Source of the DNA: a virus | DNA length: 54,541 nucleotides | Direction: 5' to 3' (one strand) | IMG/VR virus record: IMGVR_UViG_3300021420_000043 | Location: 1-54,541 of that record | In this document: piece after piece, positions 10,550 to 36,128 of the stretch | Layout of the letters: each line of letters opens with the position of its first letter | Numbering within the stretch: position 1 is the stretch's first letter | Made by a program: the position numbers and the translations under genes | Notes under the pieces: generated by a model | Seen by the model: only the letters and a program-made list of their open reading frames with translations | Database searches by the model: none | What the model was told of the DNA's origin: nothing

Positions 10550-12627
10550 TTATCAGTCACGGCGCCGTATAGCGCGCGAGAAGCTTCATCAAGTTCGGCG
10601 CGACGTTCTGGCGGCGTGTCTGGATCACGCGACTGCACATAAAGAGCGTGGCCGCCACCGCCGCCCTTGCTGACATCAGACTTGGCGGTGGCCATGCCTT
10701 GGTCCATCATCTGAATCTCGCCAAGGACGCCGTTGTTAAAACGCACCGTCATGGCACGATCGAGATACCCAAGAGGTGTCTGTTTCCACGGTTCCAGCGT
10801 GACCTCGAATTGCTTGCCGAGTTCGGCAGCGATCTGTTCGGTTTGTTGCGGCTCATCAATCACGAAAGTCGCTCGCGCGATATCGGTCACGCGCTCCACG
10901 CCACCGCGAGATTGCGCCTTCTCAATGGTGCGATCGATGCCGGCCTGATCCTTAGTCTTGACGCCAGGGTCCTTGAACGTGACATCAAGATCAGAAGCAA
11001 TATCGCGGCCGGCGCGACCGAGCGCGCGTTGTGCGGCCGGTGCTTGCGCAACGGCATCATCGATCGTGTTGATCGGCGACGCGGCAAACCAGCCGGATTT
11101 GACCGCCGCTATGTCATCAAGATCATCGGCGGCTTTGATGCCAGGATCGTAACCCTTGATCGGCACGACCGCATCGGCGTCAGGCACATCTTGTGGCTCA
11201 GAGGAATCGCGCAGCGTATTGTCGGTGTCGCTGGTGTCGCGCAGCGTATTGTCGTCACTCGTATCGGTATCGCGGAGCGGATCGTCGGCCGGCAGATCGG
11301 AGTCGTTGTCCGCCGCGGCGTCGGCGTCGCCGGCAAAGTCATCATCGATCACGGAAACAACGTCGCACTCGCAATTCGGATGCAGCGGCGGGGCGTCATC
11401 GCCGGAACTGAAAGTATCCTCGATCGCGATCGGACCGTCGTTGCCGTTTTCCTCGCAGATCGGGCACGGGTTGTCACCCAACTCCCATTGCTTGCGCAGC
11501 GGCAAGCCGGCGTCACGCGCGGCGAACATGGCATCGACCGCGGCGCTATTGCTCGCCTGCGAGACCTCGGTGCGCGCGATCATGCGGGCGCGAGAATCGG
11601 AAAACCCGGTCGAGGCAGCCAAGTCGGCCGCGATGTCGTCAACGGTTGCGCCAGACGCCATGCCGTCCGCGATGGTGTCGCGGATCACATTGCGGGTGGT
11701 CTCGGTGACCTGGCCGACCAGGTCGGAAGATCGGGCACGCGCATAGGCCGCCGCGTCATTGTCCATGACGTTGTCGTAATCGGCGGCCGGCAAGTCGTGC
11801 TGTTCGATAGCGTAGCTTTGGGCCTCGTAATGGACCGTGAAAAGCTCGTTCTCGATATGAATTGTGGTGCGGCTTAGCCGGGTGAGATCGGAGCTATCGG
11901 CAACGCGATCGGCGGTACTGACCGCTACGCCTTGGTTTTGGCCCCAAGAATCACGAACCCTTGCCCAGATTTGGGCGCTTCCTGGAAATTCGGATTGGTC
12001 AATAATGCCTTGGTAAACTTTGAGACTGCGGTCTCTTTGTTCGCGGTCGGTGCCGGTATCGTCTTGCGAGCCGACAAATTCGGCGCGGCCTCGCTGTCCG
12101 GTGACTTTTGAGCCATATCGCGCCGCACCTTTTTCAACTGCCTCATGCGCAGAGCCATCGAGGTCCGCTACATACACCATCGCGCCATCGGCGCCAGGTA
12201 CTAATGTATGAAATGCCAGGCCGTCTTGCAACAGGTCGGCGTGGATTTTATCGAGATCGCCCTTGGCGGCGAAATGATAAAGTAGATGCTCTCCCTGATC
12301 CTGTTGCTGGAATATCAGCACCGATTTCTGATCGGCGAGATAGCCCTTCATGGCGGCGGAAAGCTTCAAGGCTTCCCAGTCGGCGCCCTCGACCGTAGTC
12401 ATGAGCGAATTTTCGGCGCCATCGGCCCAGGCGCCCACGACATCGGACTGCGCCGAGTCGAGCTTCAAAGCATGATCGATGTCGGCCGACGCCTTGCGCA
12501 ACGCGATCTGTTGCGAGCCGGCGAGCGCGTCAACTGCGCCAGAGAAATCCAGATCGGACTTGACGTTCGGTGAAACGAATTCGATGCCGACATTGCCGCG
12601 GCGGTATCGGATAGTTTCGGATACCAC
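10504..12627 (-). CDS. MuF-type head protein with RelA/SpoT-like C-terminus (3' part of a frameshifted gene)
   Basis: This 707-codon frame continues the gene at 12465-13970 after a -1 shift. The GTG at 12627 is only the first start-like codon. Residues 310-418 are a MuF (phage Mu gpF-like) domain: GATVDDIAADLAAS, ARMIARTEVSQASN, then a Cys pair (NPCPICEENG) and LHPNCECDVV. Residues 425-500 are an Asp/Ser-rich linker with repeats of DNTLRDTSD. Residues 545-665 resemble a RelA/SpoT synthetase fold: a basic segment, TDIARATFVID, TPLGYLDRAM, GEIQMMD and GHALYVQSRD. MuF proteins normally help genome packaging and ejection; C-terminal toxins on them are known from temperate phages. The alarmone-type call is moderate. 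Confidence 0.7.
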   Translation of the reverse strand: MVSETIRYRRGNVGIEFVSPNVKSDLDFSGAVDALAGSQQIALRKASADIDHALKLDSAQSDVVGAWADGAENSLMTTVEGADWEALKLSAAMKGYLADQKSVLIFQQQDQGEHLLYHFAAKGDLDKIHADLLQDGLAFHTLVPGADGAMVYVADLDGSAHEAVEKGAARYGSKVTGQRGRAEFVGSQDDTGTDREQRDRSLKVYQGIIDQSEFPGSAQIWARVRDSWGQNQGVAVSTADRVADSSDLTRLSRTTIHIENELFTVHYEAQSYAIEQHDLPAADYDNVMDNDAAAYARARSSDLVGQVTETTRNVIRDTIADGMASGATVDDIAADLAASTGFSDSRARMIARTEVSQASNSAAVDAMFAARDAGLPLRKQWELGDNPCPICEENGNDGPIAIEDTFSSGDDAPPLHPNCECDVVSVIDDDFAGDADAAADNDSDLPADDPLRDTDTSDDNTLRDTSDTDNTLRDSSEPQDVPDADAVVPIKGYDPGIKAADDLDDIAAVKSGWFAASPINTIDDAVAQAPAAQRALGRAGRDIASDLDVTFKDPGVKTKDQAGIDRTIEKAQSRGGVERVTDIARATFVIDEPQQTEQIAAELGKQFEVTLEPWKQTPLGYLDRAMTVRFNNGVLGEIQMMDQGMATAKSDVSKGGGGGHALYVQSRDPDTPPERRAELDEASRALYGAVTDNYSPAWKAALGSAGK

Positions 12628-13989: not shown

Positions 13990-15345
13990 TTATCCGCCGT
14001 CAGCGGGTTCGTCGGCGGCGTCGGTTGGATTCGCGTTCGGCAAATCCTTGTCGGTGATTTCCTTGGCGCCGCGCGCCGCCTGCAATGCGATCTCGACATC
14101 GGCAGATGTCAGGTCGCCCCATTCCGAATCTATCGGTTCCTCGCCGAAGCGGTCGCGAATTTCGTTGGGCGTGATCGAGTTGTTCTTGTAGCGCGAGGTC
14201 ATGATCTCGGCGGTGGCTTGCTCATCCTCGCGATCAAGCCCGACAAACTTGAATTGCAGTTGCGAAAATCCAAGCTTGTTGTGAATGCAATGGCGCGTCA
14301 GCGTCTTGGCGATGACATGGGCGGTGGGCGTGATGGCCTGGTCCCAGTCGCGATCTTCGGCGGTCTCACTGGTGTTGCGGTTGACATCGCGCTCGATGCC
14401 GAGATTTTGCGGCGACAGATCGAAGGCGGCGCACAATTCGCGCTGCAATAATTCCTGGTATTTCAGGAACAGGCCGTCGTCGCCTTCCGGATAGAATTTC
14501 AGGACCTCGACGCGGTCGGTTTTGCCGTCAGGGGCGCGCGGCGAAGCAAACAATGGCACCAGGCCCTGACCCTCGATATCGTTGCGCCACCAGGATTTCA
14601 TGGCCTGCAGGTCATCGGTCGAGATCGGACCAAAGTCGATGCCGAACGATGGTTTGGCGTTGCCGGCGACGTTGCCGGCGAACTCTGCCGTGGACAACAG
14701 ACGCGCGATCGAACTGAATGCGATTTCCAGCGGTCCGTAACCGAACGGGGTTGCCGTAGTCGGATTGGGCCGCAGATACATTAGCTCATCGTCGCGCAAC
14801 CACTTGATATCGCCACCGCCGAACTCGGAACCGTAACCGACAGTTTGCGCGTAGCGCGGCGTGGTCGGCGTGCCGTCCCATTTCGGGTAAATCTGAATCG
14901 ACAAGCCATCGACCGGCCACATCCACAACGGCCGCAACGCGTCGCCGCCGATCTGGGTTTCGACCGCGCCGGCACCGGTCAAGTAATCCTCGATCACCGC
15001 CTCAATGAAGGACTGGAAATCGTCGGCCTCGTTCGGCGTGTTGAAGCAAGTCTCGCAAACATCGATCTGGCGCTGCAGTTCGGAATTGATGTCCTGGTCG
15101 GCGTCAAGCGGCGCGATTTCCCATTCAAGCAGCTTGATCGGGTTTTTGATCGCGTTCATGGCGCGCCGCACGAATGGCGTGCGCGAGAAATAGCGCAGGT
15201 TGCGCGGCGTTGCCTTGTAGACCAGGTTGTTGAGCTGGTTGGTGCGCCCCAATTGAACGAGATTTGGGTATCGCACCGTATCGCGGTCAGGCTCTTTGCC
15301 GCGCCGGCCCAAACGGCGCTTGATCACGTCGAGAATACCCGCCAT
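13990..15345 (-). CDS. Portal protein (HK97-like family)
   Basis: About 451 residues starting MAGILDVIKRRLG. Features: SRTPFVRRAMNAIKNPIKLL, then EDYLTGAGAVETQ, WMWPVDGLSIQIYP, ELMYLRPNPTT, GYGPLEIAFSSIARLL and ELCAAFDLSPQNLGIERDVN. These are the clip, stem and crown pattern of phage portal proteins, which form the dodecameric DNA gateway. ATG 15345 is preferred to the TTG two codons upstream. It is followed by the MuF gene, as expected, but lies about 19 kb from the terminase. Confidence 0.9.
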   Translation of the reverse strand: MAGILDVIKRRLGRRGKEPDRDTVRYPNLVQLGRTNQLNNLVYKATPRNLRYFSRTPFVRRAMNAIKNPIKLLEWEIAPLDADQDINSELQRQIDVCETCFNTPNEADDFQSFIEAVIEDYLTGAGAVETQIGGDALRPLWMWPVDGLSIQIYPKWDGTPTTPRYAQTVGYGSEFGGGDIKWLRDDELMYLRPNPTTATPFGYGPLEIAFSSIARLLSTAEFAGNVAGNAKPSFGIDFGPISTDDLQAMKSWWRNDIEGQGLVPLFASPRAPDGKTDRVEVLKFYPEGDDGLFLKYQELLQRELCAAFDLSPQNLGIERDVNRNTSETAEDRDWDQAITPTAHVIAKTLTRHCIHNKLGFSQLQFKFVGLDREDEQATAEIMTSRYKNNSITPNEIRDRFGEEPIDSEWGDLTSADVEIALQAARGAKEITDKDLPNANPTDAADEPADGG

Positions 15346-15373
15346 GGTCAAGTGCCTTTGATTTTCAATACGG

Positions 15374-18820: not shown

Positions 18821-19075
18821 TCATGCGCCGGCCAACGCGCCGCCTGGCGCCGAGACGCGCGGATGATATTTGCGCTGCGCCGCGGCGCGCAATTCTCGGG
18901 CGCGGTTGAATATCGGTTTCAGCTTGGCGCGATCGAGCATGACCACGGCAGCGTCAACGATCGAATGAACCAGCCGATCATGACGCACAATGTCGGCCAA
19001 GAGATGGGGCAACTTGTCGAGCGCGGCATCATCCATGATGGCGGATCGGATCAGCGGCTTTTCGATTATGCTCAT
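18821..19075 (-). CDS. Hypothetical protein, 84 aa
   Basis: MSIIEKPLIRSAIMDDAALD, then helical segments with HDRLVHSIVDAAVVMLDRAK and an Arg/Ala-rich C-terminus. Soluble. Its ATG overlaps the stop of the papain-like gene (ATGA at 19072-19075), so they are translationally coupled and may act together. Confidence 0.5.
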   Translation of the reverse strand: MSIIEKPLIRSAIMDDAALDKLPHLLADIVRHDRLVHSIVDAAVVMLDRAKLKPIFNRARELRAAAQRKYHPRVSAPGGALAGA

Positions 19076-19857
19076 GTGATCACCGGGGTGTTGCCTTTTG
19101 AGGCGAGGTTTTTCAGATCGGCAATCAACTGGTTATAATCAAAACCTTCCGGCGATTTCTGGTTGACCATCGCTTCGGTCGAAACATACACCACGGCTTC
19201 CTCGGCGTAGCGATCAAAGAACGCTCGCGTTGCCGGCACGGTGGCGCCCCAAGTCACGATCATCAAGCCTTGATCGGCACGCCGGCCCAAAAACGGCACA
19301 TAATGACCGCCAATGTTCGTAGCACCTGGCATGACGCGCCAGACCTGATTGAGATCGAACTGGGTCTCTGCGCTCGACGGCAGATTCAAGCCGATGCCGA
19401 TCGCGTTGAACAGATAATCGGCAATGAACAAATCAGTAAGATCGGTCGGATCGAGCGACAGATACGCCGCGATCTTGTGGCGCTTGCCGGACGCATCGAG
19501 GATGCCAATGGTGCGGCTGTATTCTGCGGCACTGAGCATGTCGGTGCCGGCGTCGCTGCCGGGAATTTTCGGGTCGTAGCCGGTGACGGCGGCATAATCC
19601 GCAATCACGCTTGCGTCGGAGAACACCGCGGCGTTGCCGCCTTCGGCGGTGAGCATCATGGTTTCGTGGGCGCGACCAGCCAGCACGCAATTGGACAGGC
19701 GATCGTTGGCGAGCATACCCCAGCCGTTCGCCGGCACCAGGTCATAGTGACCAAACACCGCTGGCACGGCGGGAAAGGCCGATCGATCGATGTACGTTTT
19801 GAGCGCGAACTTGACCGCGCCGGGATTGAGAATCAATCCGCGTTTCAGGTCAGCCAT
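19072..19857 (-). CDS. Papain-like fold protein (putative cysteine peptidase), 261 aa
   Basis: The N-terminus has NGWGMLANDRLSNCVLAGRA with a Cys just before a helix and a nearby His. The C-terminal half has NIGGHYVPFLGRR (His) and MIVTWGATVPATRAFFDRY (Trp-Gly, as after the third catalytic site). A Cys-helix then GGHxxP order is the C39/papain-like arrangement. No signal peptide. It lies in the probable lysis block, so it may be an endolysin-like hydrolase or an inactive structural relative. The catalytic Cys, His and supporting Asp/Asn are inferred; similar proteins of unknown function occur in Rhizobiales prophages. Confidence 0.5.
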   Translation of the reverse strand: MADLKRGLILNPGAVKFALKTYIDRSAFPAVPAVFGHYDLVPANGWGMLANDRLSNCVLAGRAHETMMLTAEGGNAAVFSDASVIADYAAVTGYDPKIPGSDAGTDMLSAAEYSRTIGILDASGKRHKIAAYLSLDPTDLTDLFIADYLFNAIGIGLNLPSSAETQFDLNQVWRVMPGATNIGGHYVPFLGRRADQGLMIVTWGATVPATRAFFDRYAEEAVVYVSTEAMVNQKSPEGFDYNQLIADLKNLASKGNTPVIT

Positions 19858-21192: not shown

Positions 21193-21393
21193 TTAGGTCT
21201 TGGCGAAGATAGTGGTGTCGGTGACGTAACGCATCGCGATGGTCAGACCGCCAGCGATGAGCATCGCGACGTTCGGGCCAACGAGATGGGTCCAATCGAC
21301 ACCGATCAGATAGGTCAGTGCGGCCGGAACGATCGCGATGGCCAAGCCAACGCCGATCGTGCGGAACCCTTTGAGAATGGGGGTAGCATCCAT
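21193..21393 (-). CDS. Holin-like membrane protein, 66 aa
   Basis: 66 residues with two hydrophobic segments (GVGLAIAIVPAALTYLIG, residues 14-31, and GPNVAMLIAGGLTIAM, residues 39-54), a short turn between and charged ends. Size and topology fit class II holins, and Pam3-type putative holins have the same look. RBS AGGAGG precedes the ATG. With nearby lipoproteins and the papain-like gene it forms the likely lysis cassette. Assignment is by topology only. Confidence 0.55.
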   Translation of the reverse strand: MDATPILKGFRTIGVGLAIAIVPAALTYLIGVDWTHLVGPNVAMLIAGGLTIAMRYVTDTTIFAKT

Positions 21394-21425
21394 GAAACAA
21401 GACCTCCTTCTTGTGGACTTTCAGA

Positions 21426-21626
21426 TCACTTGACGACTACCGCCGCAGGCGCCGCTGCATCGACCGCGGCGTCACAAACCGGATTGGACACCGAAAGAAT
21501 TTCAGCGTCGGTGACGGGCGGAATCATGCCGCGCGCCCAGCCAGGAACCTTGGTATTGAGCAAGGTAATCATCTCGCGCTTGGCGACATCGAAGCCGGCG
21601 TTGCGCTGTGCGATCGTGGCGGGCAT
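21426..21626 (-). CDS. Small protein, 66 aa
   Basis: MPATIAQRNAGFDVAKREMI, then PGWARGMIPPVTDAEILS and an Ala/Val tail. The ATG overlaps the TGA of the DUF3309-like gene (TGATG), indicating coupled translation. Soluble. Unknown role. Confidence 0.45.
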   Translation of the reverse strand: MPATIAQRNAGFDVAKREMITLLNTKVPGWARGMIPPVTDAEILSVSNPVCDAAVDAAAPAAVVVK

Positions 21627-21778
21627 CAAATTCGCCCGAACAAAAACAGGATCAGCAGGATGAGCAGGATCAGACCGATGCCACCGCCGCCGTAATATCC
21701 GGCGCCGCCGTAGCCGCCTAAATAGCCGAAGCCGCCGAACAATAGGATCAGCACGAAGATCAAAAGAATGAGGCTCAT
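21626..21778 (-). CDS. DUF3309-like glycine/leucine microprotein, 50 aa
   Basis: MSLILLIFVLILLLFGGFGY, a Gly/Tyr hinge, then a second hydrophobic run (LILLILLILFLFGRI). This double-helix hairpin with a Gly-rich middle matches DUF3309 proteins common in Rhizobiales. Probably a small inner-membrane protein, possibly with holin or antiholin activity given the neighbouring holin-like gene. Confidence 0.65.
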   Translation of the reverse strand: MSLILLIFVLILLFGGFGYLGGYGGAGYYGGGGIGLILLILLILFLFGRI

Positions 21779-21782
21779 GTTT

Positions 21783-24134
21783 TCACTCCACGGCGACGCA
21801 AGTCAGATGCGAGGCCAAATTTAAGTCCTGGTTGTCGGATGTTGTTATGTTGGCCTGGATCAAATAAACGCATCCGGCCAAGCAGTTGAATACCTGTTGC
21901 AGAACCGCGGCGGTTGGGGCGCCGGTCGATGGTGATGCGGCGAGTTGCGGCGACCCATACAGACGCGACACCGGAGTTGGATCGATGGTCATCGATGATG
22001 AGGTCGTGGCCACGGTGACGGTTGCGGACTCAATATACGCGCCGCCGATCAGCCACGGCGCAAAATCAAATGTCAGTGTGATCTTCTCGACCGAGGCGTC
22101 GATCGGGGAAAAATCGTTGCCGTAGGGCATGGCCGGGTTATACCCTTGTAATGTCGGTTGAGACCCGGTCGTGACCGTGACGCGCAGCGGCGGCATCGTG
22201 ACGTAGCGCGGCGAACTGCCGAGAATGATCTGTTTGATCGAAGCAATCGCCGAACCAAACCACGCCGTGACGGAACGCGACACGATGGCAAGGGTGGGCA
22301 ATAGCGTGGTCAGATTGGTCGTACCGCGCACCGCCAGCGTGAGCGCGCCGTCTAGCGCCACCGCGCAGCGGACCGCTGCGGTCGTGATCGTGGTGCTGCC
22401 AAGGAAACCGCGCAACCTGGCCGCCAACGTGGCCATGGTGGTGGCGCGCAGCTCGCTCGCCAAGCGAGCGGCCAGTGCCACGACGCCGGACGGCGAAGCA
22501 TGACCGAATTGCGCAAGACGCGCCGATCCGGTGACAGCAACGTGGCCCGTCACCGATGATCGCGCCATGATCGAGGCGGCCACAGCGCCGACCAGAGCCG
22601 CGGCGTGACGCGTCGCGGCACTGGCGCGTTGGGCCAGTGAAGCAAAACCCTTAATGGCGACGGTGCCGCTGGGTGAGGCAGAGCCGCGCAACACCACAAG
22701 ACCTTTACCGGTTGCTGCCGTCAGCAAACTGAATACTGAGGCTGTGCCGGTGCCGCGCACCGCGGCGAGCGTTTTGCCAATCAGTACGGTCAGCGGCGTG
22801 ATGCCGCTTGGCACCAGCGCGGCCAATAGCGCGGTGCGGCCGGCGCCGAACAGTGCGACCGCGCCACGCGGCGCAGCGCTCATCGTGGCAGCGATCAAGG
22901 CTGCGGCAGGGAGCCGCGCCAGCATAACCGGCAACGCGCTTTTAAGCAGCACCCGACCATGGCCAGCGGCCGTAATGGCGACCAGCGCCCGGCCGAGAAT
23001 AGTGCCAGTGGCCCTGGCCAATGCCGTGCCGCCAAGCCGCACGCTATGGCGTTGCAGCGCGGCAGCCGCACCAGCGAGGGTGCCGCGTAACGCCAACGCA
23101 ACTGTGCCGATCGGCACGGCGCGACTCAACGCGGCGAGGCCGGTCGAGCCGGCGATAGCAACTTTTCCGGACGGCGCCGCATAAGTTTTGCTGGCAAGCG
23201 CGCCAGAGCCGGTCAATCGACCAAACAACGCGGCGAGATTTTTCCCGGTCTGTGCGACAAGATCGCGGGCCATAAGCGCGACGGTGCCGCGCGGTGCAGC
23301 GGCGCGTAACATGGTGCCGATCATGGCCGCGGCAGGCAAGCGAGCGATCAGAACCGGCAACGGGCTGGTGAGCCAAGCCGCGCCGCGGCCCGTCGCGGTC
23401 ATGGCAAGTCGCACCCGACCGGCGAGCGAACCTGTTGTAACAAGCACAACGACGGCGCCAAGTCTGGCACGATAGAGTTGCGAGGCACCGGCTACACCGG
23501 CAAGCACGCCGCCGAGCGTCAGCGCAACGGCACCATGTGGTAACGGCAGGCCGGTCGCGCGAGCGGCCAGGCGACCAGTGATGGCCAATGCCAGCTTGGG
23601 CACAGCCGCAGCCGCATCGAGCGCAGCACCGAGCCGCGCCGCAATGGCGACTATGCCTTTGGCTTGGCCGAACGCAGTGAGCGTCGATGCGGAGCGGCCG
23701 GATAAAACGGCGCTGCCGTGTGCGGCAGCCTTAGCGTCAAGCCCGACAATATCGACTGCGGACAAATTGAGCCGCGGCGCCGGCAACAATGGTGCAACGA
23801 CGGTGGTGCGCAGCGACGCCTGCAAGTTGGTGGTCGGATTGAAAAAGTAATCCAGCAACAAACCGCCATAGCGGTACGGCGCGCCGGAGACTGCCGCGAC
23901 CAGCTTTGGCAGCAACGCACCTGCAAACAGATAGTTTTGCGGATGGGCTTGACCAGCCAGGTGGTTCGGAAAAGCGATGCCGGGAAGCGCACCGCCTGAT
24001 GTTAAAACTGTTGGTGTCGTCGATAGCGGCTGCACCGCGCCGGGATACCGATAGGCGGTGACTTTGGTCTGGCCAGAACCATGCTGCGGGTCCGCGATAC
24101 CTGGAAGCGCATTGGCTGGCGTCAGGACGGTCAT
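21783..24134 (-). CDS. Giant repeat protein A, 783 aa (putative fibre)
   Basis: N-terminal 80 residues contain a near-duplication (ANALPGIADPQHGSGQ and GGALPGIAFPNHLAGQ). Residues 130-600 are a degenerate ~21-residue repeat rich in Ala/Leu/Val/Gly/Arg, of the type GTVALxxRxLAAxxGAA. Residues 610-783 are a normal beta-rich domain (SSPRYVTMPPLRVTVTTG and FDFAPWLIGGAYIESATVTV). Long repetitive shafts with globular ends fit an extended fibre or solenoid. It shares its repeat with the protein at 26919. No known family recognised; located in the fibre cluster. Confidence 0.6.
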   Translation of the reverse strand: MTVLTPANALPGIADPQHGSGQTKVTAYRYPGAVQPLSTTPTVLTSGGALPGIAFPNHLAGQAHPQNYLFAGALLPKLVAAVSGAPYRYGGLLLDYFFNPTTNLQASLRTTVVAPLLPAPRLNLSAVDIVGLDAKAAAHGSAVLSGRSASTLTAFGQAKGIVAIAARLGAALDAAAAVPKLALAITGRLAARATGLPLPHGAVALTLGGVLAGVAGASQLYRARLGAVVVLVTTGSLAGRVRLAMTATGRGAAWLTSPLPVLIARLPAAAMIGTMLRAAAPRGTVALMARDLVAQTGKNLAALFGRLTGSGALASKTYAAPSGKVAIAGSTGLAALSRAVPIGTVALALRGTLAGAAAALQRHSVRLGGTALARATGTILGRALVAITAAGHGRVLLKSALPVMLARLPAAALIAATMSAAPRGAVALFGAGRTALLAALVPSGITPLTVLIGKTLAAVRGTGTASVFSLLTAATGKGLVVLRGSASPSGTVAIKGFASLAQRASAATRHAAALVGAVAASIMARSSVTGHVAVTGSARLAQFGHASPSGVVALAARLASELRATTMATLAARLRGFLGSTTITTAAVRCAVALDGALTLAVRGTTNLTTLLPTLAIVSRSVTAWFGSAIASIKQIILGSSPRYVTMPPLRVTVTTGSQPTLQGYNPAMPYGNDFSPIDASVEKITLTFDFAPWLIGGAYIESATVTVATTSSSMTIDPTPVSRLYGSPQLAASPSTGAPTAAVLQQVFNCLAGCVYLIQANITTSDNQDLNLASHLTCVAVE

Positions 24135-24150
24135 GGCGTGGCCGTCCTAC

Positions 24151-25410
24151 CTATGCCAGCGTGTAGTTCTCGGTTGCTTGACCAACAAATGGATTAGAGC
24201 CGCCGTGGGTGTCATGCGGGCCGTAGCTGATCGCGTTCACGTCGGTAGAGTTATTGTAGTAAACATTGTAATCGATGAAGCCTTTGATCCGGTCGTTTGT
24301 CGCCGCCGTACCGGCATCGACCGTCATGCCGTAGGTGCCTGGCTGGGTGTGGTTGGAAATGAGGTTGTTGTAAACCTGACCGTAAATCGCTAAGTCGCCA
24401 TAAAACTCTATTCCGTTGCCCAGGTTGCCGTCGATCGTGCAATTCATTATTGAACCGCCTCGTAGACCTATGCCGTATCCGCGGCATTTGGCAACGATCG
24501 TATTGATTACAAACCCATACCAACTAGCCCAACCCCCTCCAACTGTGTCATGAATATTGCATTGCAAGACGTTTTCGATTAGACCAGCGGCGGCGTTAGA
24601 ACCGTTTGATCCAGGCGTAACCGATGAAAATAATTCGCACGATATGAGACTGGCGCCGTCTCCGGCGACGCACGTTGTGTCGTAACCAAATTGGTCGAAC
24701 ACACAACCAATCGCTGTGACGGTATTAGCGCCGCAATACACGACTCCCTGGTTTGCGGATGTACCAGAGAATACCCAATACAAACCTTTGATCAAAGTGT
24801 TGGTGCTAACGTTCCAATATGCGTTGCACTGGATGACCGGCATGCCGCCGCTAGCGTCGGGTGGCGCCTTGTATCCGGGCGTAGCCGGGTCGTTGGCAAA
24901 TAGAATGTTACCGTTCGTCAGATCGCCGGCAACTGAGGTCAAAGCAGAAAATACATAATCGTAGGTGTATGACGACGGAGTGGGCGTACCGCTGCCGAGA
25001 ATAAGAACTTGATTGCCGGGAACGAGTGGTCCGCTCGAACTGGTGTTGGTCCAAAAGTCGGCCCAGCCACCGCCGAGATTCCAGACGGCTACAGTGCCAG
25101 TACCTGGCGAGCGGTCAAGCGTAACGGTCGTTGAATTGGTGAACGCGGTGACAAAATACCAACCTGGCGTGAAGCCGGAACCAACTGTGATTTGAATGCA
25201 ATTTCCAACCATCGCAGCGGTGAATGCAGCCGCCACAGAGTCGGAAAATGTCGTCGTTCCAGTCGCGGTTCCGGCACTCCCGCTGGCCTGCGCCGCATTC
25301 TGTTGCGAGTAATCGGTCGCTGCGCCGGCGATGCCGGCGTCGAAGCCGCCGCCGTTGGCGTTGGAGCCGCTGGGTCTCGACCGCCAGACGGCTGTTGGAT
25401 TGACCGACAC
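24151..25410 (-). CDS. Right-handed beta-helix tail spike/fibre, 419 aa
   Basis: Starts at GTG 25410. Residues 1-120 form a phage tail-like head (NANGGGFDAGIAG, TTFSDSVAAAFT, CIQITVGSG). From about residue 190 there are short Asn/Gly/Cys/Ile-rich rungs (NTLIKGLYWVFSG, GLIENVLQCNIHD, GIGLRGGSIMNCTIDGNLGN) typical of pectate-lyase-like parallel beta-helices used for receptor binding or polysaccharide degradation. It ends in TAG. Overlap and short spacing with the gene at 25415 suggest coupling. Confidence 0.7.
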   Translation of the reverse strand: MSVNPTAVWRSRPSGSNANGGGFDAGIAGAATDYSQQNAAQASGSAGTATGTTTFSDSVAAAFTAAMVGNCIQITVGSGFTPGWYFVTAFTNSTTVTLDRSPGTGTVAVWNLGGGWADFWTNTSSSGPLVPGNQVLILGSGTPTPSSYTYDYVFSALTSVAGDLTNGNILFANDPATPGYKAPPDASGGMPVIQCNAYWNVSTNTLIKGLYWVFSGTSANQGVVYCGANTVTAIGCVFDQFGYDTTCVAGDGASLISCELFSSVTPGSNGSNAAAGLIENVLQCNIHDTVGGGWASWYGFVINTIVAKCRGYGIGLRGGSIMNCTIDGNLGNGIEFYGDLAIYGQVYNNLISNHTQPGTYGMTVDAGTAATNDRIKGFIDYNVYYNNSTDVNAISYGPHDTHGGSNPFVGQATENYTLA

Positions 25411-25414
25411 AACG

Positions 25415-25741
25415 CTAGCTCACATTGCCAGGTCCGCAGACCGTCGTATAAAGCTGCTGCGCCGCCGTGGTGTAATAGGTGGCCAGGATCGCTTGGAGAT
25501 CGCCGACCAGGGCTGCGACCGTGGTGTCAGTCAGCGGCACCGCACCGGCCAGGCCGGTGGCGTCAATGACGGTCGTGCCAACCGGCACGCCGACGATCGC
25601 CGAGATGTTGGCGTTCCAGGCCATGACCAGCGCGTTCATGGTGTCCATGTTCTTGGCGAACATCGACACGGCGCTGCGCATCAGCACCACGAAATTTGAT
25701 AGCTGTGCCAGTTGCGCAGGCGTAGCTAAAGCGACGCTCAT
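25415..25741 (-). CDS. Small helical virion-cluster protein, 108 aa
   Basis: MSVALATPAQLAQLSNFVVL, SMFAKNMDTMNALVMAWN, then a C-terminal helix ending CGPGNVS. Helical and soluble. Ends in TAG five bases before the spike's GTG. May be a fibre chaperone or adaptor. Unknown family. Confidence 0.5.
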   Translation of the reverse strand: MSVALATPAQLAQLSNFVVLMRSAVSMFAKNMDTMNALVMAWNANISAIVGVPVGTTVIDATGLAGAVPLTDTTVAALVGDLQAILATYYTTAAQQLYTTVCGPGNVS

Positions 25742-26533
25742 TTAGCGCTCCCACCAACCCATGTCGATATTGGAGAACGCCATGCCAGCCGTGATATTGC
25801 CGAGGCCCCACATATACAGCAAGAAACTCTGCCCCGGACCAAGGGCCACGGGGGCGTGAACCAATTGAATGTTTGACACCGTCGCTGCGGGTGTTGCGTT
25901 GAATGGAAAATCGGCCGGACCAAAGACAAAACGATAATCATCGGCCACGATCGGGATGGTTGATCTGATCTGACCGCCGCCGATGATGGTGCGGGCATTG
26001 GGTCCAGCCGCTGGAACAACGACCGGCGTACCGCCCGCGGTCGATGCCGGAAAATATGGGGCGGCGATCGACGGCGCTACTAAATCCATGTTGGTGTTTT
26101 GCGTCGGCATGCGATACGCGGCGCCGGTCGCAGGCGAGCCAAGTGCGACGATGGTGGATGGGGCGCGATTGACCGAGTCCAATACGGTGGCGTAGTTCCA
26201 GGCCGAGGACGAAGTCGGAGCGGTGACCACAACGAGATGAATGTAATCCAGGAAAATTCGCTTGGCCGCGGCATTGGTCGGCGAATCTGTATTTTGAATC
26301 ACCAGAGCCGTAGCGGTCGCCGAAAACGAGGCACTCAGGCCAAGCTGCAACGACGTTGCGGCCGGCAATGTCGCTGCGGTAAAATATGAACCCTCATCGA
26401 CCAACAGGTGCTTGGTCGGCACGATCGAGGATACAATCGTGCCGCCGTAGCGATCGATTCGTTCCGGCTGTTCAATGGCATCGGAAAAAACCTGCGGCAG
26501 GCTACGACTGGTGCGACCCGTGACAGCGACCAT
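25742..26533 (-). CDS. Structural protein of the fibre cluster, 263 aa
   Basis: Beta-rich, 263 residues: DEGSYFTAATLPAATSLQLG, KRIFLDYIHLVVVTAPTSSS, PGQSFLLYMWGLGNITAG and a Trp-rich C-terminus. This pattern (jelly-roll-like strands with a conserved LYMWGLG end) suggests a minor tail or fibre-tip protein. No enzyme motif. Translation is coupled to the next gene by an overlapping stop/start. Confidence 0.55.
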   Translation of the reverse strand: MVAVTGRTSRSLPQVFSDAIEQPERIDRYGGTIVSSIVPTKHLLVDEGSYFTAATLPAATSLQLGLSASFSATATALVIQNTDSPTNAAAKRIFLDYIHLVVVTAPTSSSAWNYATVLDSVNRAPSTIVALGSPATGAAYRMPTQNTNMDLVAPSIAAPYFPASTAGGTPVVVPAAGPNARTIIGGGQIRSTIPIVADDYRFVFGPADFPFNATPAATVSNIQLVHAPVALGPGQSFLLYMWGLGNITAGMAFSNIDMGWWER

Positions 26534-26552
26534 GGCGTGTTTACTTTCGTAT

Positions 26553-26891
26553 TTAAAGGGTTGGTGTCAGCACAGCGAGGATTTGGCTCAGTAGAGTTTT
26601 TATGTCGCTGAGATCGGGCTGGCCGGCCGGCAGACGAACCACCGCACCATAGGCGGCGGTATCGGGCGCACCATTTACCACCGCGACACGGCCCAGCGGA
26701 TTCGATGGATCGACGATGCCGACCTGCTGGCAGTAGAAAATAGTATCGACGGTCAAGGTGGTGGTGCTGCCGTCGAGATTGGTCAGCACGGTTCCGGCAG
26801 GCACCGTGATCGGCACGTTCAGCACGAACTTGCCGGTCGAGTCGGGCGGAATTTGAATCGTTGCCGTGCCTTGCGTCGGAATCCCGGCCAT
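26553..26891 (-). CDS. Small structural protein, 112 aa
   Basis: ATG 26891 gives MAGIPTQGTATIQIPPDSTG, then VPITVPAGTVLTNLDGSTTT and a C-terminal helix LSDIKTLLSQILAVL. A short beta-sandwich plus an amphipathic helix. It lies between the two large fibre-type genes, so it is probably a fibre attachment or tip subunit. Confidence 0.5.
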   Translation of the reverse strand: MAGIPTQGTATIQIPPDSTGKFVLNVPITVPAGTVLTNLDGSTTTLTVDTIFYCQQVGIVDPSNPLGRVAVVNGAPDTAAYGAVVRLPAGQPDLSDIKTLLSQILAVLTPTL

Positions 26892-26918
26892 GCACCACTC
26901 CAAAAATTAAACACGCAT

Positions 26919-29480
26919 TCAAAGCGGCGCCAGCGTTACTGTGTGGCGAGACTGCGGCACCGTGGCCATGACGCGCGGCGCAGGCATGCTGACGGTGATT
27001 TGTTGCGACGGCGTAGTCAGCCAAGACGGCACAGCCACGAGAAACTTGACCAGTTGCGACAACGGCCCGCTGCTCGGCGCGGCGTCGAGCGGCGCCAGCG
27101 TAACGCGCGAGCGCGGCGACGGCACGGTGAGCGCGACCCGCGGCGCGGCGGCACAAATGGCCGATCTTTTGGCCGGTGTGGTGATCCAATCCGGGTTGGC
27201 AAAGAAAATCTCGAACAAGCGCAGCAACGGGATGCGACCCATTGCGACGATCTTGCCAAGCGTCACCAGGATAGGCGTACACAGCGTCGCGACGCCGTGC
27301 CCGGCAAGCTGCAGTGCTGCGGCCAGTGCGACGCGGCCGTGCGGTTGCGTCATCGCAACGATGCGCAGCCGGCCTCGACCGGACAGAATCAGGCTCCATG
27401 CCGGTGACGCGGCGGCCACGATCCGCGCCGCGGCGCGACCAAATACACGGGCCGCAAGGTGCAGCGGCGCGGTGGTGATTGTGACGATGGCAATGGCTGC
27501 CGTGAGTGCCACGCGGCCTCGCGGGCGCACCAACGAAGCGACGCGTAACGCCAAGCGAGCGGCCAGACCGATGCGACCGAGCGCGCCGCCTTGCGCCAGT
27601 TGCGCGACGAAGCCGCGGCCACGTAGCCTGGCTGACCAGCGCGGCGCGACACCGCCCAGCGAAGCCGCAACGGTGCTGCCGAACAGGCCAAGCGCGACGC
27701 CAAGCTTTGATGTGGCGCGCGACAAAGCCGCAGTGCCGCGGCCCAATAGCGCAACGGTGAGGCGATGAGTAGATGTGGCGGACAGTGCGGCGCGGGCGCT
27801 GCCGGCCAATCTGAGGCGGCCACTGACTGCCGCGATAGCGGCGAGTGCGACCTGTCCGCTGCCGACTAAAATGGCGCGGGTCCGTACCGAGGCTTTGGCG
27901 CCGGTCCATGCCGTAACGGCGCTGGTCGAAAGCTGCGCCACGCCGCGGAGCGGCGCTTTGGTGCCGGCAAGTGCCGCGACGCTGCGGCCGAACATGGTGA
28001 CGACAGCGGCGACTGCTGACGATGGCCAAGTCGTGGCAGCACCAAACACAATACGGGCGGTGCCGATCAATCGCAATCGGCCGTGCGCCGTGGCACCGGC
28101 CAGCGAGGCGACAACGGCGCGACCGGTCAGATGCGCGGTATAGCGAAACCCAGCTATGGTCCCCGACACTGCCGCAACAGTGCGGCCCGACAGGGTGACC
28201 GTAAAGCCGGCCGAAAGTGTTGCTGCGGATACCGCAGCGACGGCGAGGGCGCGCAGCGTGAGCCGGCCCTGTGCTGCGGCGGTGAAACCGGAAACATTGG
28301 CGATCGAGGCGGTGACCAGTGGCAAGGTCGCGCTGACCGCAGCGGCGATGCTGGACCATGCCGCGGCGGTGCGGCCGGAAAGTTGGATCGTCAAACGAAC
28401 GACAGGTGTGGCGGACAGCGCGGCAAGCGCGGTGCCGATCAGGCTCACTGTGCCGCTGGCGCCAGCGATGCCAACAGTTGACGCCGTGATGCGGCCGACA
28501 AGGAGCAATCTGGCGGCAACATTCGTTGCCGCACCAAAGCATGCCGTTGCGCCACGACCAACAAGACCGATAGCGAAGCGACTCGGCGACGCGGCGGACC
28601 AGCCAGTCAACGCCGCCGCTGATAAATTCAACAGTGGTGCGCTCACGCTGCGGCCGGCACCGGCACCGAGCGCGCGACCGAGCAAGCTCACAATTCCAGT
28701 AAGCGATAACGTGCCGGACCAAGCCAAGCCGGTCACGGTTTGCAGCCTCAACCGGCCGCCAGGTGTCGCCACTAGACTGATAGCAGAAGCGACGCGGCCG
28801 GCAAGGTTAAGGCGACCAAAAGCTGTGCCGCGCGCCAGGTGCGCGAGGGCGCCGCGGCTGCCGAGCAACGCGGACCAGCGCGGCGTGACGTAACCCGACG
28901 TGGCCGCTGCCAGGCGCGCCGTGAGCGAGGCGATGGCGCGCAGATAAGAGGATGGGCCGAACAACACCGCCGCGCCACGGCCGAAAAGTATCAGCGTGCC
29001 ACGAACCGATGACGCCGCCGACATGACAGCGCTGGCGCTGCCAGTCAGTTTGACCTTGGCCCTGCCGCCCGTCGTGCCGGCCAGCACAGCATTGCAACGA
29101 GCGGCCAAAACAAGACCGGCTGCCGAGGTGGCGTAAGCTGTTGCCGCCAACGCGCCGAGGCTACGCAACCGCACAAGCGGCGCCAAGTTGACGATGGAGC
29201 GCAACGCGGCTATGCCGCGCGCACCAATGCTGAGCAGGCCGCGCGGCACCAGCACGGCCGATACCACGACGCCAAGGCGACCTAACAGAATGGCGACGAG
29301 TTTTGGTGTCGTGGCGTAAGTTTGCGACGCCAGCAATCCTGTTGTGCTAAGAACAGCACGCGCTGCGGCAGAGTTGCGGCCAGACAGTGCGGTCGTTGCC
29401 TGGGCCTGCAGCGCCTGGACCGTGGCCGGCCCGGCATCGCCAAAGGTCACCTCACCGAACGTACCGGGGCCGAAAAACAT
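26919..29480 (-). CDS. Giant repeat protein B, 853 aa (putative fibre)
   Basis: Opens MFFGPGTFGEVTFGDAG (a short tail-attachment-like strand pair). About 30 degenerate ~21-residue repeats follow from residue 45 to 690, for example LRLAGSARAALSA, TVALLGRGTAALSRA, SARLRGRGFVAQLAQ: hydrophobic alternating strand, Gly-Arg turn, Ala-rich segment. The last 110 residues hold a tandem duplication: DWITTPAKR..RVTLAPL and SWLTTPSQQ..HTVTLAPL, about 41 residues each. Same repeat family as 21783. Regular period suggests a solenoid or beta-roll fibre shaft. Unrecognised family. Confidence 0.6.
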   Translation of the reverse strand: MFFGPGTFGEVTFGDAGPATVQALQAQATTALSGRNSAAARAVLSTTGLLASQTYATTPKLVAILLGRLGVVVSAVLVPRGLLSIGARGIAALRSIVNLAPLVRLRSLGALAATAYATSAAGLVLAARCNAVLAGTTGGRAKVKLTGSASAVMSAASSVRGTLILFGRGAAVLFGPSSYLRAIASLTARLAAATSGYVTPRWSALLGSRGALAHLARGTAFGRLNLAGRVASAISLVATPGGRLRLQTVTGLAWSGTLSLTGIVSLLGRALGAGAGRSVSAPLLNLSAAALTGWSAASPSRFAIGLVGRGATACFGAATNVAARLLLVGRITASTVGIAGASGTVSLIGTALAALSATPVVRLTIQLSGRTAAAWSSIAAAVSATLPLVTASIANVSGFTAAAQGRLTLRALAVAAVSAATLSAGFTVTLSGRTVAAVSGTIAGFRYTAHLTGRAVVASLAGATAHGRLRLIGTARIVFGAATTWPSSAVAAVVTMFGRSVAALAGTKAPLRGVAQLSTSAVTAWTGAKASVRTRAILVGSGQVALAAIAAVSGRLRLAGSARAALSATSTHRLTVALLGRGTAALSRATSKLGVALGLFGSTVAASLGGVAPRWSARLRGRGFVAQLAQGGALGRIGLAARLALRVASLVRPRGRVALTAAIAIVTITTAPLHLAARVFGRAAARIVAAASPAWSLILSGRGRLRIVAMTQPHGRVALAAALQLAGHGVATLCTPILVTLGKIVAMGRIPLLRLFEIFFANPDWITTPAKRSAICAAAPRVALTVPSPRSRVTLAPLDAAPSSGPLSQLVKFLVAVPSWLTTPSQQITVSMPAPRVMATVPQSRHTVTLAPL

Positions 29481-30029: not shown

Positions 30030-31871
30030 TCAGCGAACGCGTCTTGCGGAAATGATGCCCCAGGCCGAGACCGTACCGGCTCCGAACACTGCCTCTACGA
30101 CCAAATAAACCGTCGTGGTGGAACCAAGACTGATCCGAATTTTAGGAACGACAGAACTTACAATACCAGAGTAGCTGCCCAATATCGTGTTGGGATAACC
30201 GGCCGCACAGTAACGCCCCGGCGTTGTCGTATCGAGGGCGGCCGAGGTCGTAGAGATTGACGACCCCAAAAATGAAATCGTGGCGGCGCCGTTGCCGACA
30301 AAACTTACGTTGCTGTCAACGTCCCAGTCGCCAGCCGTCAGCGAAATGGAGGCCAGGTTGATGGGGGTCGCTGTCGTCAGCGATGACGGCGAGGCCGCCG
30401 CAACGGAAGCGGAAATGTATTCGCCGACTGTACCCGCTGCAGCGCTATTGTTGGTGGTCGTACCGACAATATTGAGACCCAAGGCATCGCCCCAGAATTC
30501 TGCATCAGTTGTGCCGCCAGAGTTGAGCCATCGATATGAGTGGCCGCGGCGCATTTCGGCAGCAACGCCCTGTCCGCCAGCGCCGAGAGCGGTGTCGAAG
30601 GCGCCGTCGAAAAACAAGAATCCCTTGCGGAACGGCTTGGTGCCGCCAGACGCTATGTAGCAAGCTGCCGTGGGTGAGTTGGCGACAAGTGACGGGTACG
30701 CCCCTGACGTTAAGCCGAGAGCGTAAGTCGCACCGGTATTTGAAGTGAACGGCGCCTCATCGATCAGCGAGCCGCCGTTGTTGGCGTCGAACTGGTTGAG
30801 CGTTTCACCGCCAGCGCCAGCCAGGCGGAAAACAAGACCCACGATGCCGGCTGCGATCGAAGTGGCGCCAAAGATAATCGTGTTGCCGCTGCCGACTCCT
30901 GCCCCGGTGGCGTTGGCCGACATGACAACCGTCGTGCTGGTAGTCGATAGCACGGTGGTGGCGGCAGGAATGACGGACGGACTGGTCGAGTCCATAATCA
31001 GCATGCCGTTAATCACATAGGCCGGCACGGAAGCAAAATGAAGCGTGGCGTTGCCGCTGGCCGTGGTGCCGTTGGTCGCCAGGCTTAGGGTGTCATCGTT
31101 GACACCGACGCCGGTAAGTCCTTCGGAGCCACTTGAGGCGCTGCCGGCCCAGGTTCGGAAATCGGAAGTTCGCGCGGCACCGACAACGGCAAGCTCGCCG
31201 GTCGTACTGAGAATGCCGAGTTGCGCTGCACCGATGAAAGCCAAACCGGTAAGCGAATCCAACCAACACTTGGTGGTCGGCAGATATGGTGGCGTGGTCG
31301 CCAGATCAGATGACGATACCGTGGCCGGACCGATAAACACGCGATTGAAGCGATCTACAACACCCGTGCCGCCAGTGAAGCCGAAATAATTGCCGAGATA
31401 GAACGTCCCGGCGTTGCCGGCCACCGACGTGGTATCGGTCCAGGTGCCGCCAGTGATCGCGACGTTGGCGGCGCTTTGCGTTGCGATCGAGCCGAGGCCG
31501 AGGTTGGTGCGCGCGGTGGCGGCGACCACGTCCGAAAGATTATTGGAGGCTTGCAGAAAGTTGGCGACATCTTCCGCCGCGGCACAGACGATGATCTGTT
31601 GATTGCCGGTCAGGTTGATGGCTGCGTTGCCATTGGTCGAAGCCAGCGTCGTGCGGCCGGTCAGGTTGTTGGCGCCGGAGTGATACACCGCCGAGAAGAT
31701 TTCGGAGTTGACGCCGTCGTGAAAGGCAAACCGATAAGTCGTGCCGTCAACGCCGCCAGCCAGCGCAATGGTATTGAAGCCGGCAACGGCCGCACCGAGC
31801 GCGATGGTGGTGCCGGTCCCGGTGGTCGAGCTTAACTGCTTGACCAGATTGAGAAATGCCGGATTGCTCAT
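30030..31871 (-). CDS. Tail fibre protein, 613 aa
   Basis: Residues 1-100 are a beta-rich base. Around residue 110-145, NNLSDVVAATARTNLGLGS and AANVAITGGTW form the shaft repeat (NLSDxxxARxNLGL plus VAITGGT) common to phage tail fibres. A large beta-rich receptor domain follows, and the last 60 residues (PKIRISLGSTTTVYLVVEAV then SAWGIISARRVR) are a fibre-tip signature. RBS GGGAG lies upstream. Host-recognition role inferred from these motifs. Confidence 0.8.
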   Translation of the reverse strand: MSNPAFLNLVKQLSSTTGTGTTIALGAAVAGFNTIALAGGVDGTTYRFAFHDGVNSEIFSAVYHSGANNLTGRTTLASTNGNAAINLTGNQQIIVCAAAEDVANFLQASNNLSDVVAATARTNLGLGSIATQSAANVAITGGTWTDTTSVAGNAGTFYLGNYFGFTGGTGVVDRFNRVFIGPATVSSSDLATTPPYLPTTKCWLDSLTGLAFIGAAQLGILSTTGELAVVGAARTSDFRTWAGSASSGSEGLTGVGVNDDTLSLATNGTTASGNATLHFASVPAYVINGMLIMDSTSPSVIPAATTVLSTTSTTVVMSANATGAGVGSGNTIIFGATSIAAGIVGLVFRLAGAGGETLNQFDANNGGSLIDEAPFTSNTGATYALGLTSGAYPSLVANSPTAACYIASGGTKPFRKGFLFFDGAFDTALGAGGQGVAAEMRRGHSYRWLNSGGTTDAEFWGDALGLNIVGTTTNNSAAAGTVGEYISASVAAASPSSLTTATPINLASISLTAGDWDVDSNVSFVGNGAATISFLGSSISTTSAALDTTTPGRYCAAGYPNTILGSYSGIVSSVVPKIRISLGSTTTVYLVVEAVFGAGTVSAWGIISARRVR

Positions 31872-33513: not shown

Positions 33514-33873
33514 TTATAAATCGAATTGACCGGCGTGAAATTTGCGGTGACAATTTGCGCACAGACAAACACACTTGGCCAGTTCCGCTATAAACTGCGA
33601 TGGCCATCGCCGGGAAAGACTCGATCCAATTGAAAATAGTTTCTGAGTGGGATCGCGGTGGTGTGCTTCAAGACAGATCGGATCAGGCTCACCACATCGA
33701 ATACAGCCATGTGACCGAAAGTGCGCAAGCAACTGTTCACAGATTGGACGGTTGGCGGCGTCGTTCTGGCGCACTCGTTTACGATGGCGACGCTTGCGTT
33801 GCGGATCGGCGTAATACGCCGCATTATAAGCACGGCTATAGATTTTCCTGGCTGCAAGGTCCTTGATCGGCAT
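33514..33873 (-). CDS. HNH endonuclease, short type, 119 aa
   Basis: ATG 33873 (MPIKDLAARKIYSRAYNAAY). Basic and Arg/Tyr-rich N-terminus; then CIRCGEPDPICLEAHHRDP (Cys pair and the two-His HNH motif), and VCLCANCHRKFHAG as the C-terminal Cys pair and last His. The Zn-bound HNH arrangement is complete. It lies 46 bases downstream of the tRNA gene on the same strand, a common position for mobile endonucleases. A different subtype from the one at 1010. Confidence 0.85.
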   Translation of the reverse strand: MPIKDLAARKIYSRAYNAAYYADPQRKRRHRKRVRQNDAANRPICEQLLAHFRSHGCIRCGEPDPICLEAHHRDPTQKLFSIGSSLSRRWPSQFIAELAKCVCLCANCHRKFHAGQFDL

Positions 33874-33919
33874 GGTTAGATCGTATAGAACGAAGCAAGA
33901 ACGGTCAACGCCAATCATG

Positions 33920-33996
33920 TGGTTGCGCGAGTAAGATTTGAACTTACGACCTGTAGGTTATGGGCCTACCGAGCTACCGGACTGCTCCACCGCGCG
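33920..33996 (-). tRNA. Initiator-type tRNA-Met (CAU anticodon)
   Basis: 77 bases including an encoded CCA. Stems fit: acceptor CGCGCGG/TCGCGCA with a C1-A72 mismatch, D stem GAGC/GCTC with A11-U24, anticodon stem GTAGG/CCTAC, T stem GTAAG/CTTAC with TTCAAAT loop. C1xA72 and A11-U24 are the bacterial initiator identity marks, and the body is otherwise close to bacterial tRNA-fMet. The anticodon loop reads CCCATAA: base 33 is C instead of the near-universal U, and one of three initiator G-C pairs in the anticodon stem is A-U. Likely phage-encoded initiator tRNA. Confidence 0.85.
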
Positions 33997-34499: not shown

Positions 34500-36128
34500 T
34501 TAAGCGCCAACCGCCGCGATCGAGGAACCTGACGTGAGGCCGCGGAACGCGCCGCACACCGCATCGACCTGGTCGGCGTGCGCGGACTTCGGGCCAAAGC
34601 TGCACAGTTCGTCAATGAAGGCTTGGTTCCAATGGCCGACCAGGAGCTTGACGAGATTGTTTTCGCATTGCGCGGCGAACGGTTCGGCGCGCCGCATCTT
34701 CGCCGTGGTCAATGGGCCAGTGCCGGAATCCTCGCGTTCGACCCAGATCGAATAGCCCTGCAGCATTGCGACGAAAGTGTGTGCCTGGAACTTGCCGGCG
34801 CCGCCTGGGTCCTTGGGTATTCTGATTTTGACCCCATTGCCGTGCTGCGCCGCATCCATGGCCGCTTGCATGACCAAGACGCGTTCCAGATCAGCCGGAC
34901 CCCACCGGCCACGCACCACGTCGATCACATAAAAGACCCGCGTCGCCCGGTCGCGCGCCAGCAAGACGCCAACCGTATAATCCGGATCGGTATAGCTCGC
35001 CGTCTCCGGCGACGCCGCGGTGTCCCAGGAGCGATACATATCGAGCCGGGAGAAATCCGGAATCATGTGGACCGGATTGTCGAACCAGGCCCGCTTGAAC
35101 AGGCCGCCCTCCGGCGCGGTGGGGCGTTGCTGGAATTGGCCGGCGATAGCATGACTCGACATGGTCGCTTGCATGTCGCGCAATGCGGAGATCGGGAAGC
35201 GCGATGGCCACAGCGGCTCGCCTGCCTTGCGGCAGTCGTGCCAGACCTCGCCAAGCTTCGGACCGCCATCGGTGCCGGCACTTGTATCAGTCACGCGCTT
35301 GACCTGCGGCGATTTCTTGGCACGCGGATTCTTGGGCGCGGCCGGCACTGTGAACACATGCGGATGGTGGCGCTCGAATTCGGCCGGCAGACACACATGC
35401 ACGCCGTTGAACTCGCGCGCCAGGATGTGGCCGACCAGATCGTTCTCGGCCGACCGCTGCATGCCGATAATGTAGATGCCGTTTTTTCTATCATCCAATC
35501 GGCTGTTGAGAACGTTGTCCCATTTGCTCAAGAACGTGACGCGATCGAGTTCAAAGCTTTTCGATTCGATGTTGTGCGCGTCATCGATGCAGATGATGTT
35601 CGCGCCAAATCCGGTCAGGCCGGAATTGACCGACATGGCGCGGCGCCGGCCGCCGACCGAGTTGGTGAAATTCTGGATTTGCGCGTCGCGCAAACTGAAA
35701 CGGTCGCCCCATCGTTTCTGATACCACGGCGATTCGATCAGGGATCGGCACTGCGTCGAATGCAAGTTCGACAGTTCCTGGCCGTAGCTGATGAACGCCA
35801 TGCGGGTGCCGGCACCGCGCCATGAGCCAGGTCTGATATACAGGCCGCGCCGCTGCGCCTTGTCAGGCACCGACTGCGCCCAAACCCAGGCCGGCAGGAA
35901 CACATTGATGCCGATGCTTTTCATATGCCGCGGCGGCATGGTGATGATCAGCGGCCCCTTGATCTGCCAATCGACCGCGGCGGTGAGATAATCCGCCATG
36001 CAGTCGATGTGCCAGTTGGTCTGATATTCTGCGGTCTCAAGCGCGTTGTGCCAGCCGGCGCGCATGAACTCGCCCAGCGAGCCTTCAAAAGCCAGAGCGT
36101 CGTTACCGAACCGATCGAGCAGAGCCAT
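34500..36128 (-). CDS. Terminase large subunit
   Basis: 542 residues. Near residue 60, GPLIITMPPRHMKSIGINVF holds the packaging ATPase Walker A-like segment (PPRHMKS), and ANIICIDDAHN near residue 175 is Walker B with the catalytic acid. The C-terminal nuclease half has MYRSWDTAASPETASYTDPD near residue 365 and a Trp/Asp-rich end with SFGPKSAHADQVDAVCGAFR, typical of RNase H-fold terminases with metal-binding Asp residues. It cuts concatemers and powers packaging through the portal. Followed by the strong terminator at 34393. TerS lies seven bases upstream. Confidence 0.9.
   Translation of the reverse strand: MALLDRFGNDALAFEGSLGEFMRAGWHNALETAEYQTNWHIDCMADYLTAAVDWQIKGPLIITMPPRHMKSIGINVFLPAWVWAQSVPDKAQRRGLYIRPGSWRGAGTRMAFISYGQELSNLHSTQCRSLIESPWYQKRWGDRFSLRDAQIQNFTNSVGGRRRAMSVNSGLTGFGANIICIDDAHNIESKSFELDRVTFLSKWDNVLNSRLDDRKNGIYIIGMQRSAENDLVGHILAREFNGVHVCLPAEFERHHPHVFTVPAAPKNPRAKKSPQVKRVTDTSAGTDGGPKLGEVWHDCRKAGEPLWPSRFPISALRDMQATMSSHAIAGQFQQRPTAPEGGLFKRAWFDNPVHMIPDFSRLDMYRSWDTAASPETASYTDPDYTVGVLLARDRATRVFYVIDVVRGRWGPADLERVLVMQAAMDAAQHGNGVKIRIPKDPGGAGKFQAHTFVAMLQGYSIWVEREDSGTGPLTTAKMRRAEPFAAQCENNLVKLLVGHWNQAFIDELCSFGPKSAHADQVDAVCGAFRGLTSGSSIAAVGA

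Follow-up and report, generated by a model that had tools for sequence, protein, structure and literature searches.

The two large proteins A and B encoded in the structural region of this uncultured virus are probably the shafts of tail-attached fibres with a beta-solenoid-like build, A carrying an adaptor of its own. Beta-rod-like repeats in both proteins, an adaptor-like domain in A and the occurrence of similar proteins in many phages together make this the most likely explanation. The kind of protein would then be a familiar one (phage tail fibres), and the repeat class has no name in the libraries searched. The window, i.e. the whole stretch of 54,541 bases that was analysed, corresponds to one complete IMG/VR virus record.

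Judged by its genes for a terminase, a portal, a minor head protein and a tail fibre, the genome is that of a tailed phage (see Table 1); among named phages, its terminase is best matched by those of Rhizobium phages, at 32% identity. Both open reading frames called in the first-pass annotation of this DNA were recovered on the minus strand at the positions in the table, and they encode 783 and 853 residues. The two genes lie inside the structural block, with the terminase on one side and the portal on the other, and their region is flanked by a canonical tail fibre gene and a lysis-type gene block. The C-terminus of the tail fibre gene product matches 8vbx_R ('Tail fiber (gp47)', E 6.6e-11). 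For the 419-residue protein that separates B and A, no family match was obtained.

Table 1. Positions of proteins A and B, of their parts and of neighbouring structural genes in the window (residue numbers refer to the respective protein)
Feature	Coordinates	Strand	Remarks
Large terminase	34500-36128	minus	
Canonical tail fibre gene, upstream of B	30030..31871	minus	phrog_11393
Protein B, repeat protein	26919..29480	minus	853 aa
B N-terminal segment, residues 1-20	29421..29480	minus	contains FGPGTFGEVTFGDAG; by eye
B repeat region, residues 21-731	27288..29420	minus	~36 units of 20-21 aa
B C-terminal duplication, copy 1, residues 751-798	27087..27230	minus	ends APRVALTVPSPRSRVTLAPL
B C-terminal duplication, copy 2, residues 806-853	26922..27065	minus	ends APRVMATVPQSRHTVTLAPL
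Protein separating B and A	24151..25410	minus	419 aa; beta-helix-like / tailspike-like by eye
Protein A, repeat protein with fused adaptor-like domain	21783..24134	minus	783 aa
A N-terminal duplication, residues 1-40 / 41-80	23895..24134	minus	TVLTPANALPGIADP / TVLTSGGALPGIAFP
A repeat region, residues 116-625	22260..23789	minus	~25 units
A linker	22089..22259	minus	contains SSPRYVTMPPLRVTV; by eye
A C-terminal Gp77-like (PF23148) fibre-tail adaptor domain, ~residues 682-769	21828..22091	minus	
Portal	13990-15351	minus	
Minor head protein	10504-12627	minus	

A period of 20-21 residues is present in both proteins, with autocorrelation peaks at lags 20, 40 and 60 in A (z 3.2-5.0) and at lags 20, 40, 61 and 80/81 in B (z 3.9-5.4). 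The first-pass annotation had described a shared unit of about 21 residues, of which the repeat itself stands and the length is corrected to 20-21. A unit profile derived de novo scored 646 bits on A and B together, against 326-356 on 12 shuffles, and placed 20 copies in A and 31 in B; tiling by eye gave the larger numbers of units listed in Table 1. The units are highly degenerate, the Ala content being about 21%, and have the consensus A-S-P-R-G-R-V-A-L-x-G-R-A-A-A-A-L-S-G-A, in which the previously noticed Gly-Arg turn falls at positions 11-12 (45% each) and the Ala-rich segment appears as an Ala-rich half. Single-unit profile scoring could not distinguish B from reversed B, and two-unit HMMs with reversed controls were therefore adopted. 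The HMM built from units of A scored 208 on B, 128 on reversed B and 66+-10 on shuffles (max 100), and the HMM built from units of B scored 154 on A, 89 on reversed A and 52+-9 on shuffles (max 82). This reciprocal recognition above reversed and shuffled controls indicates that one directional repeat is common to both proteins, as had been claimed. None of the Pfam, PHROGs or NCBIfam families, including the known phage tail fibre families, covers the repeats of A or B, and the literature searched yielded no account of this family of repeats. The absence of a name from all searched libraries explains why the family had gone unrecognised in the first pass. Pentapeptide repeats were rejected as an identity for A and B, the autocorrelation at lag 5 being negative. 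The repeat profiles also matched sequences of WD-repeat and autotransporter chains in the PDB, which were judged compositional.

In B, the 711 residues of the repeat region contain 70 Arg/Lys and not a single Asp or Glu, the basic residues being concentrated at unit positions 4, 6 and 12. Short aromatic-repeat N-termini like that of B were seen by eye in the phage loci L106, L160 and L092 and in phage Mel-JY03. The C-terminal tandem duplication, previously put at about 41 residues, proved to be real and longer, with 48 aligned residues (23 of them identical) at a spacing of 55 residues (score 116, shuffle max 46). Both copies close with a tail of the form 'PRV..TVP..R..VTLAPL'.

Protein A likewise has a duplication, missed in the first pass, at its N-terminus, with about 35 residues repeated at a spacing of 40 (score 83, shuffle max 39). 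Its linker resembles, by eye, the Arg/Val/Pro tails found ahead of Gp77 genes in other phages, and the last ~100 residues of A resemble Gp77 itself (PF23148), which according to Pfam is the fibre-tail adaptor of podophage GP4. The match to PF23148 has 18-19.8 bits (E 0.004 alone, 5e-5 in a genome search), which is below the curated cut-off of 27 bits. The C-terminal ~88 residues align across most of the Gp77 domain, and alignment with hhalign to six Gp77 proteins gave scores of 25.5-28.3 (E 3e-4 to 9e-4), a level reached by none of 100 shuffles (max 17.4); nine other open reading frames of the window and the C-terminus of B scored 9.4-19.1. The Gp77 profile in turn matches PDB chain 8jou_D ('Virion-associated phage protein', E 4e-15), from an entry that we take to be the GP4 fibre-adaptor structure. 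In GP4 Gp77 is a separate protein of about 95 residues, whereas the similar domain of A is fused to repeats; the solved GP4-type tail fibre (8jov) corresponds to the gene downstream of the adaptor and not to that of the repeat protein.

Repeat genes and Gp77 are found side by side in other phages as well. Gp77 was detected above cut-off in four of 47 contigs with repeat proteins (L203, L104, L109 and L101), each time immediately after the repeat gene. Proteins with a period of about 20 residues also lie immediately upstream of Gp77 in phage DSL-LC06, in Burkholderia phage BcepIL02 (gp56-gp57) and in Ochrobactrum phage POI1126 (gp16-gp17), the latter two with an Arg-rich C-terminal tail, and in Mae-JY22 a protein with a 22-residue period is located a few genes ahead of Gp77. 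The A-unit and B-unit HMMs match neither BcepIL02 gp56 nor POI1126 gp16 nor the DSL-LC06 protein, and the first two have no detectable unit-level similarity to A and B; it is thus the arrangement that is conserved in these three phages, homology of their units to those of A and B being unproven. Among the three, only POI1126 gp16 is tied by sequence to the wider set of repeat proteins, with 24.8 bits against the repeat HMM of the relatives (shuffle max 5.8). A Bradyrhizobium prophage has Gp77 with a neighbour that is not repeat-like, and in Sphingobium phage Lacusarx the protein upstream of Gp77 has no significant period. In the Bcep22-like phage JC1, the Gp77 homologue gp55 is among the proteins detected by mass spectrometry in purified virions (PMC9144972). 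An adjacent or fused Gp77 is a feature of a subset of the repeat set; A has its fused Gp77-like domain, and no Gp77 domain was found in the C-terminus of B or in the open reading frame next to it. Downstream of A follow a DUF3309 mini-protein and a holin-like small membrane protein (21193-21778, minus strand), and small membrane proteins likewise come after Gp77 at locus L109.

Conventional searches retrieved no relatives of A and B. A tblastn search of INPHARED phages with A, B, the C-terminus of A and a consensus repeat returned nothing, single-protein scans of IMG/VR with B, the C-terminus of A and a neighbouring 166-residue protein gave no useful relatives, and no repeat-HMM match above noise was found in the terminase relatives (L002-L081). 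A period scan of loci that included Rhizobium, Erythrobacter and Bradyrhizobium phages detected no such repeat, at a threshold that also missed B. A DNA pattern encoding three G-x-[VIL]-x-L-x-G cores, 60 bases apart, identified at least 120 stretches in IMG/VR; among those listed, proteins of about 70 contigs were kept after removal of leucine-rich-like sequences by pattern and by eye. The latter 20-residue repeats (NLTVGGSLYLRGTGITSLPD) also fit this DNA pattern and were left out of the set as belonging to a different family; they occur in phage contigs L105, L111, L113, L121, L155 and others, and apparently constitute a separate, abundant family.

The retained phage proteins, many of which carry repeats resembling 'ASGTLPLTGSATGAVxVSG', form a widespread set for which neither the libraries nor the papers searched give a family name. 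A and B show the 20-22-residue period and the G-x-[VIL]-x-L-x-G core of this set, and with members such as those of Mel-JY03 (WWT39611), L109, L149, L168 and L203 they have in common a period of 20-21 residues, the core and a half-unit of small residues. By eye, some members also resemble A and B in an aromatic motif at the N-terminus and in Arg/Val/Pro tails at the C-terminus. The typical relative is rich in Ser, Thr and Gly and about charge-neutral; degeneracy and Arg content are much higher in A and B. A repeat HMM built from the relatives only scored 56.5 on A, 21.4 on reversed A and at most 36.9 on shuffles, a directional match by which A is akin to the wider set as far as sequence comparison goes. 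On B it scored 66.2 forward and 76.7 reversed (shuffle max 42.6), the reversed protein scoring as high because the motif is nearly palindromic; the kinship of B with the set consequently rests on its similarity to A and on the end motifs recognised by eye. A scan of 36 relatives gave DUF2807 matches in three and matches to tail-protein PHROGs in a few; the DUF2807 cut-off is passed by two of the phage relatives (L179, 49.3 bits; L125, 39.6 bits), and Pfam gives no match to DUF2807 (PF10988) in A or B. The repeat protein of Microcystis phage Mel-JY03 (L220:4777-6666, PP395636.1, WWT39611.1) is annotated as a glycerophosphodiester phosphodiesterase. It consists of a glycine-rich part and 20-residue repeats, and the label is probably a misannotation.

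The fold of the repeats was modelled with AlphaFold2 from shallow pseudo-alignments of repeats, giving models of moderate confidence. The B model covered residues 570-730, i.e. eight units, using 27 aligned repeat segments with rows from relatives mixed in. Regular, all-beta units were predicted rather than disorder, with a pLDDT of 74.9, a pTM of 0.64 and one residue below pLDDT 50. The model of the relative L109 (pLDDT 78.6, pTM 0.67) has two strands of 7-8 residues per unit. A Foldseek search of solved structures with the B model gave no match at E<0.5 (best listed PDB TM 0.42), and in the viral library the best match was A0A7S5Y904 (E 0.0055, TM 0.68), with uncharacterised phage proteins next in rank. 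Superposition of the L109 model on the beta-helix of DUF2807 (head GIN domain, PDB 3ljy) gave a TM of 0.63 with a non-significant E-value, and the resemblance of the repeat models to known beta-helices is weak. Taken together, these models of B and L109 make a beta-solenoid a plausible fold for the repeats. The earlier suggestion of a beta rod forming tail fibres thus gains from the predicted beta units, the Gp77-like domain of A and the pairs of repeat and Gp77 genes, the fold being a prediction and the position at the tail one that we infer.

The same beta repeat could also build virion surface proteins away from the tail, such as head fibres or decoration rods, which we regard as rather unlikely. 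A genome with two distinct repeat proteins could use them in two places, B is without an adaptor-like domain, and JC1 gp54, which has the gene position of gp56 and hence of the repeat gene, is absent from the list of virion proteins consulted in that paper (PMC9144972); the Gp77-like fibre-tail adaptor domain of A and the location of both genes near the canonical tail fibre nevertheless argue for the tail. It is improbable that A and B are low-complexity, largely disordered proteins that have no regular fold and owe their periodicity to past DNA duplication. Their Ala content, their degeneracy and the moderate confidence of the models would fit such proteins, but the period is kept across about 700 residues despite far-diverged units, the hydrophobic, Gly and Arg pattern is position-specific, and the predicted structure is all beta.

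Also improbable is a function outside the virion, as a cell-surface or secreted adhesin made by the infected host, for instance in lysogenic conversion. The domain whose cut-off is passed by the two phage relatives mentioned above, DUF2807, is described as a putative autotransporter adhesin domain; however, no signal peptide is seen by eye in A or B, their genes are part of the structural block from terminase to portal, and A has its adaptor-like domain. Least probable of all is that such strongly basic proteins are internal or ejected virion components or DNA-binding rods, as the charge of the B repeat region might suggest, since most relatives with 20-residue repeats have a roughly balanced charge and the association with an adaptor points to the exterior of the tail.

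For A and B as tail-attached fibre shafts, we propose that each unit of 20-21 residues would form two short beta strands with the Gly-Arg turn between them, and that successive units would build up an elongated rod resembling a beta-solenoid. With one unit per rung and an assumed rise of 4.8 Å, the rods of B and A would be about 17 nm and 12 nm long, respectively. A would be fastened by its own C-terminal Gp77-like domain, with a short Arg/Val/Pro beta tail ahead of it; as repeat protein and adaptor are encoded by two adjacent genes in other phages, A looks like a fusion of such a pair. B ends in two Arg/Val/Pro tails of this kind and would need a partner, possibly A, and its Arg-studded, acid-free surface could bind anionic cell-surface polysaccharide; a receptor would be another presumed contact of the fibres. 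A more far-reaching and tentative possibility is that the repeat proteins represent an uncatalogued, widespread class of fibres with a two-strand, 20-residue rung, coupled to Gp77 across unrelated phages, with the adaptor fused here onto one copy and the other copy being a polycationic rod, free of acidic residues, by which anionic polymers of the cell surface would be gripped. A frequent kind of phage protein, at present annotated as hypothetical or wrongly, receives from the analysis a testable identity and an attachment logic, and through the fusion in A the repeat is linked with a tail adaptor. Should these repeat proteins prove to be fibres, they may have a part in setting host range in many environmental phages.

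Elsewhere in the genome, an HNH endonuclease gene (33514-33996, minus strand) adjoins a tRNA-Met (CAT) gene, and a phrog_13532 protein of unknown function is encoded at 2204-3088 (minus strand, E 7e-57). The phrog_19005 protein encoded at 19072-19857 (minus strand) has 43-44% identity to proteins of contigs L088-L090, the last of which carries additional genes that look actinobacterial by eye.
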